Shown here: piece by piece, positions 1 to 11,694 of the stretch
How the letters are laid out: each line of letters starts with the position of its first letter
Position numbering within the stretch: position 1 is the stretch's first letter
Source: Halobacteriales archaeon SW_10_68_16
GTDB taxonomy: Archaea; Halobacteriota; Halobacteria; Halobacteriales; Haloarculaceae
Length of the DNA: 12,815 nt
Direction of reading: 5' to 3'
Assembly (NCBI GenBank): GCA_003023485.1
Contig: PXSG01000118.1
Span: 1-12,815 of the forward strand
Program-made: the position numbers and the translations under genes
The notes under the pieces: generated by a model
Told to the model about the DNA's origin: nothing
The model's database searches: none
The model's input: the letters and a program-made list of their open reading frames with translations, nothing else

Positions 1-159
1 ATGGAGGAACATCGGTCCGACCTGGGGGAGTTCGTCGTCGTGAACGTCTCCGGCCGGGGCGACAAGGACCTCGAAACTGTGGTCGAGGAGACCGGGGAGC
101 GCGACATCGACGCGGCGGCCGACATGGACCTGTTCCGGGAGATCGGGGGTGGCCTCTGA
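1..159 (+). CDS. trpB: Tryptophan synthase beta chain, C-terminal end (5' truncated by window)
   Basis: Frame 1 is open from the window edge to TGA at 157-159 and encodes the last 52 residues of TrpB, the PLP enzyme that joins indole and serine to make tryptophan. The motif [11 protein letters not shown] near fragment residues 13-23 is the family's conserved C-terminal signature. By family knowledge its Ser (codon 49-51) is the residue that contacts the PLP pyridine nitrogen. The remaining tail is acidic, as expected for a halophile. The first ATG at base 1 is probably internal, because the rest of the protein (about 350 residues) lies outside the window. The stop overlaps the trpA start by one base (TGATG), so the two subunits of the alpha2-beta2 complex are almost certainly co-translated. 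Confidence 0.93.
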
Positions 160-1028
160 TGGGCCTGGAGCGGGCCTTCGCGGACGGCCCGGCCTTCGTC
201 CCGTACCTCGCGGCGGGCGACCCCAGATACGAGGACTCGCTCGCCTACGTCGAGGCCCTCGCCCGCGGCGGCGCCGACGTCATCGAACTCGGCTTGCCCT
301 TCTCGGAGCCCATCGCCGAGGGGACGACCATCCAGGAGGCCATCGTCCGCGCGCTGGAGGCCGGGATGACTCCCGAACTGTTCTTCGAGTTCGTCGCGGA
401 GCTCGACGTCGACGTGCCGCTGGTCTGTATGACCTACTACAATCTCGTCTACCAGTACGGCAGCGAGGCGTCGAGCGCCTCGGGCGCGAGCGGTGAAAAC
501 GCGAGCGAGGATGGACCCCGACCGTTCGTTGAGCGTGCGGCGACCGAGGGTATCGAGGGGTTCGTGATTCCGGACCTGCCCGCCGAGGAGGCGGGGCCGC
601 TCCGGGCAGCTTGTGACGAGTTCGGACTCGACCTCGTGTTTCTCGTGGCGCCGACGACCACCGAGGACCGCCTGGCGCGGATGCGCGAGCAGGTCTCGGG
701 GTACGTCTACGTCCAGGCACGCCTCGGAACCACGGGCGCCCGCGAGGACGTCTCCGGCCGGATCGAGGAGTCGCTCGCCCGCATCGCTCACTGGGACGTC
801 CCCAAGGCCGTCGGCTTCGGTATCAAGACTGGCGACCACGCCGAGCGCATCGTCCGGGCGGGCGCCGACGGGGTCATCGTCGGGAGCGCGCTGGTGGACA
901 TCGTCGCAGAGGGCCACGAGAACGACGACCCCAGCGAGGCAGTCGCGGACCGACTCGAAGCGAAGGCACGCGAACTAAAGGAGGGTACACTCCGGGGCGC
1001 AGAGAAACTCGAAGCGGAGAGCGACTGA
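159..1028 (+). CDS. trpA: Tryptophan synthase alpha chain
   Basis: This 289-residue TIM-barrel protein cleaves indole-3-glycerol phosphate to indole and glyceraldehyde 3-phosphate and channels indole to TrpB. The N-terminal motif VPYLAAGDP (residues 14-22) and the active-site strand [18 protein letters not shown] (42-59) are clear. Glu43 aligns with the catalytic Glu49 of the E. coli enzyme. The position of E. coli Asp60 is Glu54 here; I believe this is shared by other haloarchaeal TrpA proteins. The phosphate-binding GFGI (about 222-225) and [12 protein letters not shown] (about 237-248) follow. A Ser/Glu-rich insert at about 102-121 makes it slightly longer than the usual 265-280. The ATG overlaps the trpB stop by one base, with a GGGGTGG stretch 6-12 bases upstream as a weak ribosome binding site. 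Confidence 0.95.
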
Positions 1029-1065
1029 TACCACCCTCGTGGTTCGCCGAGTCGTAATCGGAACG

Positions 1066-1074
1066 AACATAACG
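1066..1074 (+). promoter_or_regulatory. TATA-like box for the ADH synthase gene (leaderless)
   Basis: The AT-rich element AACATAACG is centred about 29 bases before the ATG at 1099. That is the distance expected when transcription starts at or next to the start codon. No Shine-Dalgarno sequence lies in front of the ATG, which also fits a leaderless mRNA. The gene may additionally be read through from trpBA, 70 bases upstream. Confidence 0.5.
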
Positions 1075-1098
1075 CTACTTGCCACACACTCACACACG

Positions 1099-1905
1099 AT
1101 GACAGCAGGGAAAGCGGCACGCATCGAGCGCATCGGCACAGGCGGGCGACACGTCATCATCCCCATGGACCACGGCATCACGATGGGCGCGGTCAAGGGA
1201 CTGGCCGACATCGAGTCGACCATCGACGCCGTCACGTCGGGCGGCGCGGACGCCGTCCTCACCCAGCGGGGCATCGCCCCCCGCGTCCACGACAGCAAGA
1301 ACGACGCCGGCTACATCGTCCACCTCAACGGGTCGACGAACATCGGCCCCGACGAGATGGACAAGCGCCCGACGGGCACCGTCGAGGACGCCGTCCGGGC
1401 GGGTGCCGACGCCGTCTCCTTCCACATCAACGTCGGCAGCGAGTACGAACCCGACCAGATCACCCAGTTGAGCGAGGTGACCAGCGCGGCCGACCGCCTG
1501 GGGATGCCCACCCTGGCGATGACCTACGCGCGGGGCCACGACGTCCGCGACGACGACCCCGAGGCCTTCGCGGAAGACCTGGGTCACGCCGCCCGGCTCG
1601 GCGAGGAACTGGGCGCGGACCTCATCAAGACCGCCTACTCGGGGACGCCCGAGACCTTCGAGCGTGTCGTCGAGTCGACGCGCCTGCCGGTCGTCATCGC
1701 CGGCGGGAGCAAGGGTACCGACGGGGAGACGCTGGCGATGGTCCGTGGCGCGATGGACGCTGGCGCCGCGGGCGTCTCGATGGGGCGCTCGATTTTCCAG
1801 CACGACGACCCCGGCGCCATCGCGGCGGCCGTCGCAGCGGTGGTCCACGACGACGCGGGCGCCAGCGAGGCCGTCGAGCGGTCGGGGCTCGCGGTCGAGG
1901 TCTGA
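1099..1905 (+). CDS. aroA': 2-amino-3,7-dideoxy-D-threo-hept-6-ulosonate (ADH) synthase, class I aldolase-like
   Basis: This 268-residue protein belongs to the DhnA/FbaB class I aldolase family (MJ0400 type; often annotated fba2 in haloarchaea). It makes the C7 amino sugar that starts the archaeal shikimate route in place of DAHP synthase. The sequence shows IPMDHGITMG (21-30) with the conserved Asp24, MTYARG (141-146) with Tyr143, and ADLIKTAYSG (173-182), whose Lys177 should form the Schiff base. VIAGGSKG (199-206) and SMGRSIFQ (227-234) form the C-terminal phosphate-binding strands. Pathway context supports ADH synthase over fructose-bisphosphate aldolase: trpBA is upstream and DHQ synthase II lies 2.2 kb downstream. 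An in-frame GTG at 1039 would add 20 residues, but the TATA spacing and the family N-terminus favour 1099. Confidence 0.9.
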   Translation: MTAGKAARIERIGTGGRHVIIPMDHGITMGAVKGLADIESTIDAVTSGGADAVLTQRGIAPRVHDSKNDAGYIVHLNGSTNIGPDEMDKRPTGTVEDAVRAGADAVSFHINVGSEYEPDQITQLSEVTSAADRLGMPTLAMTYARGHDVRDDDPEAFAEDLGHAARLGEELGADLIKTAYSGTPETFERVVESTRLPVVIAGGSKGTDGETLAMVRGAMDAGAAGVSMGRSIFQHDDPGAIAAAVAAVVHDDAGASEAVERSGLAVEV

Positions 1906-2624: not shown

Positions 2625-2942
2625 TCATCCCCGCACACTCCAGTACCACGCCACGGCGAGCAAGGCGAGGACGAACGCACCCCCGAAAAAGAAGGACAGG
2701 CCGGCGACGAGCGCGGGGTCCAGCCCACCCGCCGCGGCGACGGCGACATCGGCCGCCTCGGGATCCGGCGTCGGAGTCATCCCTGTCGGCGTCGTCCCGG
2801 TCGCGGTGTCGACGGCCCCCTCGGTGGCTTCCGGTGTCGCAATAGTGTCGGCCGTCTCATTGCTCCCGGTCCCGTTCGTCTCGTTGCCGCGCAGGGTCGC
2901 GTTTTCGGCGTCCATCTGTTCTGCGTCGGGCGTCTCCGCCAT
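2625..2942 (-). CDS. C-terminal part of a frameshifted membrane-anchored regulator (sequon-rich linker plus TM helix)
   Basis: This 105-codon frame starts inside the upstream winged-helix reading frame and runs one base out of phase with it. Its first 70 residues are Thr/Glu/Asp/Pro-rich low complexity, with four N-X-T sequons at Asn14, 20, 23 and 28. A single strong membrane helix follows (about 78-101), ending WYWSVRG. Composition is typical halophile coding, whereas the overlapping phase is Arg/Pro-rich noise. I read it as the displaced continuation of the regulator encoded at 2777-3517. Related haloarchaeal proteins, as I recall them, have this layout in one chain: winged helix, TM, low-complexity linker, TM. 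Independent translation from the ATG at 2942 as a tail-anchored protein cannot be excluded. Confidence 0.6.
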   Translation of the reverse strand: MAETPDAEQMDAENATLRGNETNGTGSNETADTIATPEATEGAVDTATGTTPTGMTPTPDPEAADVAVAAAGGLDPALVAGLSFFFGGAFVLALLAVAWYWSVRG

Positions 2943-3517
2943 CCCGCTATCTCCGCGGCCCCCTCCTCGCTCGACTCCCGCGGTGCCGCCTCCTCCTCGG
3001 TTTCGGCGGTTTCAGTACCGGCGCCTGCACCCGCGCTCTCGCCCGCGCTCTGGAACGACTGTGCGGAGTCGGGGGCAGTCAGGCGGTCCGCGAGGATTGC
3101 GACGACGGCGCTGCCGGGCAGCAGGACAGCGAGGACGCCGACGACCCGCTTGAGTAGCGAGCGCAAAGCGCCCTCGGTGTCCTCACCCGCCAAGAGGACG
3201 AGCGCCTCGTCCGTCGGAGCGTACACCTTCATCTCGGTGCCCCGCTCGGAGTACCAGGTGTCCACCACCTCGACGAGGTCGGCCGCGACCAGCTTTTCGA
3301 GGTGGTACTGGGCGTTCTGGACGGAGGTGTCGGTGACCTCCGCGAGGTCGGAGGCGGTCTGGGGGCTGGCGTGGAGTTCGGCGAAGATGGTCCGTGTCGT
3401 CCGCGAGGAGAGCGCGTCGAACACCTCGTCGGCGACGTCCTCGTCGAGTTCGATCAACCGCGGGTCGCGGTCCTCGCCGAGACTGACCGTCTCTCGCAGG
3501 GGGAAGATCCCGCCCAT
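2777..3517 (-). CDS. Winged-helix regulator with membrane helix, frameshifted near 2940
   Basis: The reading frame encodes an ArsR-type winged helix at about residues 28-85. TSVQNAQYHLEKL (64-76) is the recognition-helix region and DTWYSERGTEMKVYAP (86-101) the wing. A membrane helix follows at about 124-145, then an acidic linker to about residue 190. From about base 2942 onward this phase turns abruptly Arg/Pro-rich (GWRRRPTQ and on to the stop at 2777), while an acidic, Thr-rich frame begins one base out of phase. The natural protein is therefore probably about 295 residues with two TM helices, ending at 2625. The ATG at 3517 was preferred; a GTG at 3529 is also possible. TATA-like TGATTAC lies about 29 bases before the ATG. 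It acts at the cytoplasmic membrane as a putative one-component regulator with unknown signal. Confidence 0.7.
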   Translation of the reverse strand: MGGIFPLRETVSLGEDRDPRLIELDEDVADEVFDALSSRTTRTIFAELHASPQTASDLAEVTDTSVQNAQYHLEKLVAADLVEVVDTWYSERGTEMKVYAPTDEALVLLAGEDTEGALRSLLKRVVGVLAVLLPGSAVVAILADRLTAPDSAQSFQSAGESAGAGAGTETAETEEEAAPRESSEEGAAEIAGWRRRPTQNRWTPKTRPCAATRRTGPGAMRRPTLLRHRKPPRGPSTPRPGRRRQG

Positions 3518-3613: not shown

Positions 3614-3834
3614 TCAGCCGGTCGTGACGTGGTCGGGACGGATGCGGAGGATGACCCGCGGGCCTGGGTCGGAGTCCCGGTAGGGGTACGCCTCGACGTC
3701 CATGTACTTCCTGGCGAGGGCGTCGATGTGTTCGTCGGCGTCACGTGGGGCATCCCGTCCGGGAGCAGCGTCGCGACGTGTGCGAACGTCGGGCGGTCCA
3801 CCAGATGGCGCGCGTCTTCGGGAATGGCTGGCAC
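3614..3834 (-). pseudogene. Remnant of a PPOX-type (F420-dependent) oxidoreductase with the middle deleted
   Basis: Two pieces of one family abut in different phases. From a GTG at 3834, IPEDARHLVDRPTFAHVATL continues into LPDGMPHVTP, matching the N-terminus of F420-binding pyridoxamine-phosphate-oxidase-like proteins. Immediately after, one base out of phase, comes DEHIDALARKYMDVEAYPY and then a strand ending IRPDHVTTG, matching the C-terminus, with TGA at 3614-3616. In intact members of about 130-145 residues these motifs are separated by several beta strands that bind the flavin or deazaflavin. Those are missing here, leaving about 73 codons. The junction falls around bases 3733-3745. The product cannot fold as the parent enzyme. 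The region 3530-3613 downstream of it holds only the promoter of the frameshifted regulator. Confidence 0.8.
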
Positions 3835-4122: not shown

Positions 4123-5292
4123 ATGACACGCGCCGTGTGGCTCAAGGCCGACGACGAGGTCGGCGACTGGGAGGACCGGAAGCGCCGCATCACGGCCGGA
4201 CTCGAGGCCGGCGTCGACTGGGTGCTCGTCGACGAGGCCGACATCGAGCGCGTCCGCGAACTCGGTGTCGTCAACGTTGCCGCCTTCGCCGGCGACGACG
4301 TCCACGTCATGGAGGCCGAACGCGAGGGCCCCGAGGCCGACGCCACCGTCGTCGGGAAGGACGGCGAGGGCGACGGCACCGTCTCCCTGCCCTCCGACTA
4401 CTCGGGGTCTGCCGACCTCTCGGCGCTCCGGAGCGACGGCGAGACGCCGATGGGCGGGTACGTCCGCATCCGCGACGAGAGCTACGAGGAGTTCGCCGCC
4501 GAGGTGGCACGCGAGGCCGAGTACACCATCGTCGTCGCCGAGGACTGGCAGATCATCCCGCTGGAGAACCTCATCGCCCGCATCGGCGACGAGACGACGC
4601 TCGTGGCGGGCGTCCGCTCGGCCGAGGAGGCACAGACCGCCTACGAGACGCTCGAACTCGGGGCCGACGCGGTCCTCCTCGATACGGACGACCCCGACGA
4701 GATCCGCGAGACCGTCGAAATCCGGGACGCCGTCGACCGCGAGACGCTCGATTTGGAGTACGCCGAGGTCACGGCCATCGAGCGGACCGGCAGCGCCGAC
4801 CGCGTCTGCATCGACACCGGCAACATGATGGACCACGACGAGGGGATGCTCGTCGGGTCGCTCTCGCGGGGACTCTTTTTCGTCCACGCCGAGACCGCCG
4901 AGTCACCCTACGTCGCCTCCCGGCCCTTCCGGGTGAACGCCGGCGCCGTCCACGCCTACGTCCGGGTGCCCGGCGGCGAGACGAAGTACCTCTCCGAAGC
5001 CGGCAGCGGGACCGAAGTCCAGGTCGTCGACACCGCGGGCAACACCCGCGAGGCGGTGGTCGGTCGCGCGAAGATCGAGAAACGGCCGATGTTCCGGATC
5101 CAGGCAGAGACCGAGGGCGGCGACCGCGTCGAGACGCTCCTTCAGAACGCCGAGACGATCAAGGTCCACACCCGCGAGGGCGGCCGAACCGCCGTGACCG
5201 ACCTCGAGGCTGGCGACGAGATCCTCCTCTACTACGAGGAGACCGCACGCCACTTCGGCGAGGCCGTCGAGGAGAGCATCATCGAGAAGTGA
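4123..5292 (+). CDS. aroB': 3-dehydroquinate synthase II
   Basis: This 389-residue protein is the archaeal NAD-dependent enzyme that oxidatively deaminates and cyclises the ADH product to 3-dehydroquinate, replacing bacterial AroB (MJ1249 family). Family landmarks are RKRRITAGLEAGVDWVLVDE (19-38), AEDWQIIPLENLIA (139-152), CIDTGNMMDHDEGMLVGS (229-246), then RGLFFVHAE (249-257) and RPFRVNAGAVHAYV (267-280). Length fits the family. The chosen ATG has the usual N-terminus MTRAVWLKAD. Only a weak TATA-like GTTCAAG lies about 27 bases upstream, so it may be leaderless or co-transcribed with the RHH gene. It works directly after the ADH synthase encoded at 1099. Its stop is one base from the stop of the convergent zinc-ribbon gene. 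Confidence 0.93.
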   Translation: MTRAVWLKADDEVGDWEDRKRRITAGLEAGVDWVLVDEADIERVRELGVVNVAAFAGDDVHVMEAEREGPEADATVVGKDGEGDGTVSLPSDYSGSADLSALRSDGETPMGGYVRIRDESYEEFAAEVAREAEYTIVVAEDWQIIPLENLIARIGDETTLVAGVRSAEEAQTAYETLELGADAVLLDTDDPDEIRETVEIRDAVDRETLDLEYAEVTAIERTGSADRVCIDTGNMMDHDEGMLVGSLSRGLFFVHAETAESPYVASRPFRVNAGAVHAYVRVPGGETKYLSEAGSGTEVQVVDTAGNTREAVVGRAKIEKRPMFRIQAETEGGDRVETLLQNAETIKVHTREGGRTAVTDLEAGDEILLYYEETARHFGEAVEESIIEK

Positions 5293-5774: not shown

Positions 5775-6412
5775 CTAAAATGTTGTGTCCCGTTCTCCGC
5801 GCTGATCCGACGTCTCCGGCGGTCCCGAGTCGAGGCGTTCGATCAGTTCGGTGAGCGTCGCGAGGTCGAACTGTCCCGGTGCGGTCGCCTCGGCAGGGTC
5901 GACCGGGGCGTACCCGATCCGGGAGCCATAGAGCGGGGCCACGGCCCGGGAGTGGCGGCCGGCCTCGCCCATCGCCATCGTCGCGACCCGGGAACCGTTC
6001 TCCGTCTCCGACCAGGTCGCGGCCAGCAGGGCCAGCACGTCGCCGGGCGACTCGGCGGTGACGGCGAGTTTCCCCACGTCCCCGCGGTCGGCGGCCATCG
6101 CGAGCAGCGACTCCATCCGTTCTTGGGTGGGCGTTCGGCGTCGAGTTCGACGTCCACTGCCTCGACCTCGGGGTGTTCGAGTGCGGTCTCCAGCGTGTCG
6201 AGGCGCTCCTGACTGTCGGGTGCCTCGCCACCCTCCCACTCGACGCGGTTGGTCACGAGCAGCGGCAACTCCCCGTCGTAGGCGTCGAGGGGTGCCAGCG
6301 GGTCAGCGGCGAGGTCCATCCGCAACTCGACGGCGTCGGCGTGCTCGCGGGCGGCCGGTTCGTCCTCGAGGTCGGCCGTCGCCGCCGCGAGGACGAACGA
6401 CTCGAAGTTCAT
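5775..6412 (-). pseudogene. aroD: 3-dehydroquinate dehydratase (type I) with internal deletion and frameshift
   Basis: Type I dehydroquinase converts 3-dehydroquinate to dehydroshikimate through a Lys Schiff base. From ATG 6412 the first 94 codons match the N-terminal half (VELRMDL 28-34, PLLVTNRVEWEGG 50-62, VEAVDVELDAER 83-94). The match then stops at about base 6131. Starting at 6134 in the -1 phase, TPTQERMESLLA, GDVGKLAVTAESPGD with the Schiff-base Lys, VATMAMGEAGRHSRAVAPLYGS and ATAPGQFDL complete the C-terminal half. The strand carrying the HDF motif, whose His is the catalytic base (His143 in E. coli), is absent from all phases. About 30 residues are missing. A TATA-like T tract lies about 27 bases before the ATG. 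Neither half alone would be active. Confidence 0.82.
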
Positions 6413-6450: not shown

Positions 6451-7422
6451 TCAGGCGACGGGGATGTCCTGCTCGGCCTCGAGGAGTTCGTGGTAGCGGT
6501 TGCGGATCGTCACCTCGGAGATGTCGGCGACCTCGCTGACTGCCGCCTGCGTGGTCTTCTCGTTGGTGAGGAGCGCGGCCGCGTACACCGCCGCGGCGGC
6601 GAGTCCAACGGGGGACTTCCCGGAGTGGACGCCTTGCTCTTTGGCGTTCGCGAGGAGCTGGCGCGCCCGTCGTTCGGACTCCTCGGAGAGTTCCAGGTCC
6701 GAGACGAACCGGGGCACGTAGCTCTCGGGGTCGGCCGGCTTGACTTCGAGGCCGAGTTCGCGCACGACGTAGCGGTAGGTGCGTGCGATCTCGCTTTTCT
6801 CGACGCGGGAGACGTCGGTAATCTCGTCGAGCGAGCGCGGAACGCCGGCCTGGCGGGCCGCGGCGTAGACCGCCGCCGTGGAGACGCCCTCGATGGAGCG
6901 ACCGGGCAGGAGGTTCTCGTCGAGCGCACGCCGGTAGATGACCGAGGCCGTCTCGCGGACGTTCTCGGGGAGCCCGAGCGCGGAGGCCATGCGGTCGATC
7001 TCGCCCAGCGCCTGCTTGAGGTTGCGCTCTTTGGAGTCCCGCGTCCTGAACCGCTCGTTCCACTTGCGCAGGCGCTGCATCTTCTTGCGCTGCTTGGCGC
7101 CCAGGGCGTTGCCGTAGGCGTCCTTGTCGCGCCAGTCGATGTTCGTCGAGAGGCCCTTGTCGTGCATCATGTTCGTCGTCGGGGCCCCCACTCTGGATTT
7201 CTCGTCTTTCTCGCGGGCGTCGAAGGCACGCCACTCGGGGCCGCGGTCGACCGACCCCTCTTCGACGACGAGGCCACAGTCCTCGCAGACTGTCTCGCCG
7301 TGTTCGTCGTCGGTGAGGAGTCGACCGCCACACTCCGGGCACGCGTGTCTGGCCGTCGCGTCTTCCTGTTCGTCGGTCCGTTCCCGCGTTGCGGTACGGG
7401 TTCGTGTGTTTGAGTCGCTCAT
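6451..7422 (-). CDS. tfb: Transcription initiation factor IIB (TFB)
   Basis: A 323-residue archaeal TFB, which binds the TATA/TBP complex and BRE and places RNA polymerase at the start site. The N-terminal zinc ribbon has Cys28, 31, 46 and 49 (CPECGG and CEDCGLV). The B-reader/linker follows (RGPEWRAFD, SRVGAPTTNMMHDKGLSTNI, WRDKDAYG, about 57-105). Two cyclin-like repeats span about 120-210 and 217-310, each with a typical core (STAAVYAAARQAG; GLAAAAVYAAALL). The second ends with a helix-turn-helix (VSEVADISEVTIRNRYHEL) that reads BRE. Haloarchaea carry several TFBs, and which paralogue this is cannot be told here. ATG 7422 was chosen because the zinc ribbon is correctly spaced; a GTG at 7455 would add 11 unremarkable residues. 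Confidence 0.95.
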   Translation of the reverse strand: MSDSNTRTRTATRERTDEQEDATARHACPECGGRLLTDDEHGETVCEDCGLVVEEGSVDRGPEWRAFDAREKDEKSRVGAPTTNMMHDKGLSTNIDWRDKDAYGNALGAKQRKKMQRLRKWNERFRTRDSKERNLKQALGEIDRMASALGLPENVRETASVIYRRALDENLLPGRSIEGVSTAAVYAAARQAGVPRSLDEITDVSRVEKSEIARTYRYVVRELGLEVKPADPESYVPRFVSDLELSEESERRARQLLANAKEQGVHSGKSPVGLAAAAVYAAALLTNEKTTQAAVSEVADISEVTIRNRYHELLEAEQDIPVA

Positions 7423-7482
7423 TGTCGGACTGGAGGGTAACCGGGCAGGAGTCACCTGTAAAATTCCCGGGGTTCGTTCGCT

Positions 7483-7629: not shown

Positions 7630-9444
7630 TCACTCGTGTGGTTCGGCATCGACGTCGCGGCTCCGTTCGACGGCAGTGGTCAGCGAGACGTTCAGCCAGG
7701 CCATCGAGACGAGGCCGCCGGCCACCGTGACGGCGTTCTTGACCGCGTGGTCGACGATGGCGGCCGACAGCGCCGCCACGGCCCCGATGGGGGTCAGCGC
7801 CACTACCAGCAGGGTGAACGCCCCCTCGTAGAGCCCGATGCCACCCGGGGAGAGCGGGAGCACCTTCGCGAGGTTGCCGACGCTGACGGCGAAGAAGCCG
7901 ACCGCGAGCAGTGCCGGGACCGGGAGACCGACGTCGAAGGCCAGCAGGACGACGATGGCGGTGGCGGCGTCGAGCGACCAGATGAGGAGGCTCGCGGCGC
8001 CGACCCGCGCGAAGGCCGACCCGTCGCGGGCGACCGTCTGGACGTCCCCGGCGAACCCTTCGAGCTTGCCGGCCACGTAGTCCGCGTAGGCGTCGGAACT
8101 CAGCCGGCCGACGGCTCCCCTGACGTAGTTGCGCTCCGAGCGCGCGCTGGCGACGATGACGGCGACGGCGAGGACCGCCGCGAGTCCGACCCCCGCAGCG
8201 ACGGCGATGGCTGTCCGGCCGCTTGTGGCCTCCTCGCCGTCCAGAGCGCCGCCCAGCAGTGCCGCCTGGAGGTCGGCGACCGAGCCCGTGAGCACGAGGC
8301 CGATCAGGACACCACCCGCCAGTAGCGTGATGGTCAGGAGGTCGAACACGCGCTCGACGGCCAGCGACGCGAACCCCGAGGTGTATGGAATTCCCCGGCG
8401 GGCCTTCACGACGTATGCGCGGACGGCGTCGCCGGCGCGTGCCGGGAAGACGAGGTTGCCGGTCTGGCTGATGAACACCGCACCCGTCAGGAAGCCCCAC
8501 CGTTCGTGGTAGCCGATGGCGCCGAGAATCGCCCGGTACCGCAGGCCGCGCAACGGCCACGAGAGGAGGTAGACGAGGGCACTCAGAGCGACCAGCCCAG
8601 CGTCGGCCCCGGACATCCGCCGGAGGACCTCCGCGGGATCGAGATAGACCGTCATCAACAGGAGTGCGAGGACGACCAGTCCCGTGCCGGCCGCGAGGCT
8701 GACCCGCCGCGTAATCCGCGGGCTCACCGACAGTTGCCACCACGTCCGGAGGATCTGACTGCCCATCCCGAAGACGTCCCGGACGATGTCGACCTTCGAG
8801 TCACCCTTTGGTGTCCAGTCGACGGGGAACTCCCGCACGCGGTAGCCCGCCCGCTGGGCGCGCACCAGGACTTCGGTGTCCCAGAACCAGTGTTCGTCCT
8901 CGACGTCAGCCAGGACGTCGAACAGCACATCCCGGTCGAAGGCTTTGAAGCCACACTGGTGATCCCGCACGTCCGAGCGCAGGAACAGACCCACCAGCCT
9001 GTTGTACCCGAGGCTCGGCACCCCGCGCTTGGCCGGCCGGTCGGCCTCGCTGTCGGGGAGCCACCGCGAGCCCGTCGCCATATCGTACTCGCCCGAGCGG
9101 ACGCTCTCGACCAGTTCTTCGAGGTGGCGCATGTCCGTCGCCAGGTCGGTGTCGAAGTACACGAGCGTCCCGCCCCGGGCGTCCCGGAACGCGCGCTCCA
9201 GCGCCCCACCCCTGCCCAGTCGCTCCTCGGCGTGGGTGTGTCTGACCGCATCGTGTTCGGCTGCGAGTTCGTCGGCAATTTCCGGCGTCCGGTCCTCACA
9301 GCCGTCCTCGGCGACGATGACCTCGTAGGAACCCTCGGGGAGAAACGACGCCAGCGTCGCCAGCGTGGTCGCGACGGTGTCGGCCAGCGTCCCCTCCTCG
9401 TTGTACGCGGGAAGGACCACGCTGACCTCGACGCCGGCGCTCAT
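7630..9444 (-). CDS. aglD: AglD-like dolichol-phosphate hexosyltransferase fused to a flippase-like membrane domain
   Basis: A 604-residue two-domain protein. Residues about 5-240 are a GT2 glycosyltransferase of the dolichol-phosphate type: VVLPAYNEEGTL (9-20), VIVAEDGCED (43-52), the metal/sugar-nucleotide DxD in YFDTDLATD (96-104, Asp98 and Asp100), DHQCGFKAFDRDVLF (161-175) and HWFWDTEVLVRAQRAGYRV (185-203). From about 248 on, eight or so membrane helices form a UPF0104/LPG-synthase-like domain with ISQTGNLVFPARAGDAVRAY and SPGGIGLYEGAF. This fusion is the architecture of Haloferax AglD, which charges dolichol phosphate with the last hexose of the S-layer N-glycan. Start ATG 9444 has a TATA-like element about 26 bases upstream; a GTG at 9459 is less likely. 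The symbol is by homology, and the sugar specificity is not provable here. Confidence 0.85.
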   Translation of the reverse strand: MSAGVEVSVVLPAYNEEGTLADTVATTLATLASFLPEGSYEVIVAEDGCEDRTPEIADELAAEHDAVRHTHAEERLGRGGALERAFRDARGGTLVYFDTDLATDMRHLEELVESVRSGEYDMATGSRWLPDSEADRPAKRGVPSLGYNRLVGLFLRSDVRDHQCGFKAFDRDVLFDVLADVEDEHWFWDTEVLVRAQRAGYRVREFPVDWTPKGDSKVDIVRDVFGMGSQILRTWWQLSVSPRITRRVSLAAGTGLVVLALLLMTVYLDPAEVLRRMSGADAGLVALSALVYLLSWPLRGLRYRAILGAIGYHERWGFLTGAVFISQTGNLVFPARAGDAVRAYVVKARRGIPYTSGFASLAVERVFDLLTITLLAGGVLIGLVLTGSVADLQAALLGGALDGEEATSGRTAIAVAAGVGLAAVLAVAVIVASARSERNYVRGAVGRLSSDAYADYVAGKLEGFAGDVQTVARDGSAFARVGAASLLIWSLDAATAIVVLLAFDVGLPVPALLAVGFFAVSVGNLAKVLPLSPGGIGLYEGAFTLLVVALTPIGAVAALSAAIVDHAVKNAVTVAGGLVSMAWLNVSLTTAVERSRDVDAEPHE

Positions 9445-9464
9445 TGGTCGCACTTTCACCAGCG

Positions 9465-11043: not shown

Positions 11044-11694
11044 ATGGCACGGACGCGACTGCCACACGACGCGAAGGCAGGACCGACGAAGCCGGAGGTG
11101 CGAGCGGTGACGCTGTCGAAACTCGACCTCGGTCCGGCCGACCACGTCGCGGAGATCGGCTCCTGTACCGGTGCGGTGACCATCGAGGCCGCACGCCGGG
11201 CGGGTCGGGTGACCGCGCTCGAACGCAAGCCGGGCCGGGCCGAGACGACGGTCAAGAACCTCACAGCCAATGGAGTGGCGCTTCGGTCAGGCACGACCGC
11301 AGCAACCGACGGCGGGAGTCCAGCAACACGGAGCGACCGTGGAGACCACGCCGACGTGGAGGTCCGGGTCGCCGAAGCTCCCGAGGGACTTCCGGAGGAC
11401 GTCGACGCGCTCTTCCTCGGGGGCAGTCGGAACTACGAGGCCGTCCTCGACCACGCCGTCGCGACAGGGGTCGACCGCGTCGTGATGAACGTCTCCCGGC
11501 TGGAGGTCGCAGGCGCGGCGACGGAGGCCTTCCGCGACCGGGACTTGCTCGACGAGGTGGTGCAGTTCCAGGTCAGCCACGGGTACGAACTCGCTGGCGC
11601 GACCAGTTTCGATTCGGAGAACCCCGTCTACATGCTCGTGGGCGGCGTCGACGATGCGACGCCCGAGGTTGCGACCGACGGGGGTCAGCAATGA
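11044..11694 (+). CDS. cbiT: Cobalt-precorrin C15-methyltransferase (decarboxylating)
   Basis: A 216-residue SAM-dependent methyltransferase of the anaerobic corrin pathway. CbiT methylates C15 and decarboxylates the C12 acetate side chain of the cobalt-precorrin. GPTKPEVRAVTLSKLDL (13-29) is the CbiT N-terminal signature. HVAEIGSCTGAVTIEAA (34-50) is the SAM-binding loop, with GSCTG where many methyltransferases have GCGTG. DALFLGGSRN (121-130) and VVMNVSRLE (about 145-153) are further Rossmann strands. A Ser/Thr/Asp-rich insert at about 80-104 separates the SAM strands. It leads the operon; its stop overlaps the cbiL start in ATGA (11691-11694), so translation is coupled. The start at 11044 fits the TATA box at -26. 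Confidence 0.9.
   Translation: MARTRLPHDAKAGPTKPEVRAVTLSKLDLGPADHVAEIGSCTGAVTIEAARRAGRVTALERKPGRAETTVKNLTANGVALRSGTTAATDGGSPATRSDRGDHADVEVRVAEAPEGLPEDVDALFLGGSRNYEAVLDHAVATGVDRVVMNVSRLEVAGAATEAFRDRDLLDEVVQFQVSHGYELAGATSFDSENPVYMLVGGVDDATPEVATDGGQQ

Follow-up and report, generated by a model that had tools for sequence, protein, structure and literature searches.

A frame-broken aroD without its catalytic-histidine segment on a haloarchaeal contig, with an assembly fault or a newly arisen local deletion as the likeliest cause

When aroD (OE1477R) is deleted, Halobacterium salinarum can no longer grow unless aromatic amino acids are supplied (PMC4162585). In bacterial genomes, assembly errors commonly create false pseudogenes (PMC11017572). 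The DNA considered here, a stretch of 12,815 nucleotides assigned to Halobacteriales archaeon SW_10_68_16 (hereafter the window; GC 68%, zero N), probably belongs to a metagenome contig. It carries a haloarchaeal type I 3-dehydroquinase gene in two frames, and the gap in this gene most likely reflects a fault of assembly, or else a new local deletion, and not novel biology.

The broken aroD occupies positions 5775-6412 of the minus strand. In tblastn the intact AroD protein P0001 matches the window in two pieces that lie in different frames and contain no mismatch, residues 1-92 at 6412-6137 and residues 122-240 at 6134-5778 (119/119 identical). The N-terminal part (6137..6412) is read in the first frame and the C-terminal part, with the stop codon (5775..6134), in a shifted one; if one mismatch at residue 93 is allowed, the first piece reaches residue 94. 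The codon of A92 ends at 6137 and that of T122 begins at 6134, placing the junction at 6134..6137. Between these two codons there are 87 nt in P0001 and 2 in the window, so 85 nt (28 codons plus one base) are missing, a figure obtained by codon arithmetic against the P0001 protein and not its DNA. The position of the junction is probably ambiguous by about 1 nt.

The lost stretch includes the histidine that, in an alignment with solved type I dehydroquinases such as 1gqn, falls on the histidine of their HDF motif. We take this histidine and the lysine of GKLAV to be the catalytic pair, the lysine presumably forming the Schiff base; the lysine (K143 in P0001) is retained on the C-terminal half in the tblastn match. 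The Pfam family DHquinase_I (PF01487) matches each half separately and in different frames (19-100 and 128-229 of 230), and no single-frame match to the whole domain was found for the window gene. None of the three minus-strand frames between 5750 and 6420 contains the motif HDF. Both observations uphold the sequence-only reading of this DNA, which had described an aroD that lacks its catalytic-His segment, changes frame and has no HDF in any phase of the minus strand. Its further suggestion of a deletion between GAACGC repeats is unsupported: the lost end was expected to read HDFERTP, whereas P0001 has HDFEGTP.

Could the split gene work as it is, by frameshifting or as two assembling pieces? 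Both halves are open and conserved, but the strand with the catalytic histidine is missing from all three minus-strand frames of this region and the best-scoring related loci are unsplit, and such a scenario is hardly credible. An alignment with the AroD of relatives, proposed as a check in the sequence-only reading, comprised the best-scoring 80 of 149 confirmed loci, a ranking that could leave out a badly broken relative because of its low score; all 80 are unbroken through the gap region and carry residues 1-215 in one frame with histidine and lysine in place. Two of them lack a literal HDF, the histidine nonetheless being kept. Among the genome loci compared, the AroD closest to that of the window belongs to a Haloarculaceae archaeon (L001), with 66% over the best-matching segment.

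P0001 itself comes from the JGI database, where it has one member sequence and is found on six contigs, the longest of 40,874 bases. It agrees with the window in every one of the 211 residues on either side of the gap, with zero residue changes outside it, and it contains the missing segment. The population from which the window derives, or an almost identical one, therefore carries a whole aroD. More widely, P0001 has a match in 142 of the 146 genomes of G001's family (in G142 and G107 a partial one), and none was found in G040, G100, G129 and G138. Base-by-base comparison with genomes of this family was discarded, since their best identity to P0001 is 71%, which is too distant. Two of the 142, G015 (C3) and G032 (C10), are counted on divergent copies: each gave a pair of type I dehydroquinase matches at 39-46% to P0001, with no close one among the candidates scored. 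A plasmid collection yielded only two aroD matches, both distant (71.6% and 69.3%), and among viral contigs 25 stretches matched a pattern, none of which encodes a relative of P0001.

A second dehydroquinase, of type II, was found in none of the 146 family genomes (0/146), in a search whose control matched in 7 of 14 named genomes. By analogy with these genomes, such an enzyme is unlikely in the window's organism. If the lesion were real, this absence and the H. salinarum deletion phenotype would make auxotrophy very likely, as a case of ordinary gene loss.

The aroD gap does not stand alone. Frame-breaking internal losses occur at about 2955, 3736 and 6135, in three minus-strand genes within 3.2 kb, and amount to 94 nt in an ArsR-type HTH membrane protein gene, 181 nt in a PPOX-class enzyme gene and 85 nt in aroD; the first two values, measured against proteins that are not identical to those of the window, may be off by a few codons. 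An intact and otherwise identical copy was found for aroD (P0001), while the best PPOX match reaches 90% and the HTH gene has only the near-identical P0127.

The PPOX-class gene (3614-3834, minus strand) is split across two frames. Its N-terminal part, residues 1-34 with a GTG as the probable start, lies at 3733..3834 and is matched in tblastn by P0121 (93.75% over residues 3-34) and P0123 (58.8% over residues 1-34). The C-terminal part, residues 93-133 plus stop, lies in the other frame at 3614..3739 (90.2% to P0121). At the junction (3733..3739) 7 nt are readable in both frames, and 181 nt are missing compared with P0121. This protein of 133 aa matches PF01243, and neither window frame of the gene matches any Pfam family. 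In the protein database no exact intact PPOX was found (five hits among 12 candidates); the query frame had 94 residues, about 43 of them in the true frame, and candidates were limited to proteins of about 52-164 aa, a range in which a copy whose annotated start lies much farther upstream would not appear. Because no exact intact copy turned up, although one would be expected on the 40,874-base contig that encodes P0001, the PPOX loss may be real in the population.

In the HTH gene (2625-3517, minus strand) the junction falls in a Gly/Asp-rich linker at 2954..2957, with 94 nt missing compared with P0127. The N-terminal part (2957..3517) corresponds to P0127 residues 1-183, with 183 identical residues and a 4-residue gap in tblastn (97.9%), and the C-terminal part (2625..2954) to residues 216-324 plus stop in the other frame, as judged by frame reading and tblastn. 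P0127 (JGI, 324 aa, on a contig of 3066 bases) is thus an intact copy, identical over 183 + 109 residues, and differs from the window only by a 4-residue in-frame indel and the lost stretch. No exact intact copy appeared among the 120 of 450 hits listed, where P0127 was the only near match; scoring was confined to the 7997 candidates with the most words in common, and the two-member P0127 cluster could conceal such a copy. P0126, the HTH protein of the window itself, is recorded from a contig of 20,003 bases, which suggests that the window is a section of a metagenome contig.

P0002, P0121 and P0128 represent the three genes in whole form, and the contig given for each is an NCBI one of 10,982 bases. 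We infer that this is one contig, i.e. a sister in which all three genes are whole. As queries for the rate of such lesions in relatives, P0121 matched none of 80 loci and P0128 matched 7 of 80, four of these seven in the N-terminal part only and none with an internal stop, and these searches are uninformative on HTH and PPOX.

At the three junctions the shared nucleotides would number about 1 in aroD, 7 in PPOX and about 1 in HTH. The lost length is 3k+1 nt at all three sites, three cases being too few to build on. A shared junction motif was considered and rejected: GCCG is present at all three, but it also occurs in 8-16% of 7-11-base stretches of these genes, and as evidence judged after looking it is at most weak.

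Nine further genes of the window have a Pfam domain above the cut-off. In eight of them it is near-complete, so there is no general decay of the contig. The eight encode the tryptophan synthase alpha chain TrpA (159..1028, plus strand; PF00290, 9-257 of 259), an aldolase of the DeoC/LacD family (1039..1905, plus strand; PF01791, 2-229 of 229, complete), for which ADH synthase is a name taken from the sequence-only reading and not from the Pfam match, a small HTH protein (2275-2571), 3-dehydroquinate synthase II (4123..5292, plus strand, probable start; PF01959, 1-344 of 344, complete), a DUF7575 protein, transcription factor B (6451..7455, minus strand; two TFIIB repeats, PF00382 in two stretches, and a zinc ribbon, PF08271), a glycosyltransferase fusion and a DUF7839 regulator. 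The ninth, a tetrapyrrole methylase gene, is matched over domain positions 1-136 of 212. ORF 11044-11694 has Pfam matches below the cut-offs only, and for ORF 1976-2278 no Pfam match was found. The glycosyltransferase fusion is a 609-aa ORF (7630-9459, minus strand) in which a family 2 glycosyltransferase is joined to a lysylphosphatidylglycerol-synthase-type membrane domain. The whole domains of TrpA, the ADH synthase-like aldolase and DHQ synthase II agree with the earlier view that these genes look intact.

Real and recent deletions in one strain, by end-joining or slippage, could have inactivated all three genes and left an aromatic auxotroph living on the amino acids of its neighbours. 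We regard this as possible, and as the main alternative to a technical cause. Points in its favour are the clean junctions without N, the 7 nt that can be read from either side at the PPOX junction, a protein-database search that yielded no exact intact PPOX (five hits among 12 candidates), the failure to find type II dehydroquinase in any of 146 family genomes, and an aroD mutant of H. salinarum that is viable but auxotrophic (PMC4162585). Yet three unrelated neighbours are affected, AroD is unchanged outside the gap compared with an intact copy, the best 80 of 149 related aroD loci show no frame break, and the other aromatic-pathway domains named above are whole in the window.

Haloarchaea are polyploid. 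In a mixed state, intact and deleted copies would coexist in a polyploid cell or in sister strains and the assembler would have kept the deleted path. The identical intact AroD on public contigs is compatible with this, but all three separate sites would have to resolve to the deleted path, and we consider it very improbable. A further scenario, which we rate as very improbable, invokes local multi-lesion repair: several deletions of 85-181 nt, their ends sharing a few nucleotides, would have arisen within 3.2 kb while intact copies persisted in the same polyploid or sister cells, an auxotroph thereby arising inside a prototrophic population.

An assembly or amplification fault is the probable cause of the aroD, PPOX and HTH losses. 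The source haloarchaeon, Haloarculaceae-like by its AroD, would then have an ordinary, intact aroD in its population, and the assembly, or amplified (chimeric) DNA behind it, would have joined sequence across short gaps in three genes. We infer that all three joins are technical. That three unrelated genes within 3.2 kb are hit while AroD is unchanged outside its gap is easier to reconcile with a technical cause than with ordinary decay. The intact P0001 and P0127, the sister with all three genes whole, the near-complete domains of eight other window genes, the unbroken best 80 of 149 related aroD loci and the false pseudogenes known from bacterial assemblies (PMC11017572) also speak for it. 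Against it stand the absence of N, junctions that share very little and the protein-database searches, which yielded no exact intact PPOX and, for the HTH gene, P0127 with its 4-residue indel as the nearest copy. Shared ends of about 1-7 nt would be too short for a k-mer repeat in the assembler to account for the joins.

The sequence-only reading had left three options for this organism. Its assembly gap is now favoured, given an otherwise identical intact AroD and two nearby genes with like lesions; another dehydroquinase, of type II, is unlikely by analogy with the 146 family genomes; and auxotrophy is weakened by the intact P0001, by the unbroken related loci (best 80 of 149) and by the two similar lesions nearby. 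The case warns that an auxotrophy call made on a single contig can be overturned by checking other contigs. If the deletions were real, a natural haloarchaeon would have lost the synthesis of aromatic amino acids very recently.

How does the locus compare with known systems? Both halves of the window gene match the PF01487 family of haloarchaeal AroD, to which H. salinarum OE1477R belongs, and the intact P0001. The gene lies near DHQ synthase II, as gene numbering and the legend of Figure 2, the parts of PMC4162585 that bear on this, suggest for H. salinarum. In contrast to haloarchaeal AroD, however, the window gene is without 85 nt including the catalytic histidine, and its frame is broken. 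With the spurious assembly pseudogenes described in PMC11017572, the locus shares a frame-broken gene, a near-identical intact copy and the occurrence of several such genes per contig; it differs from them in its larger internal losses (85-181 nt) and in being, probably, part of a metagenome contig.
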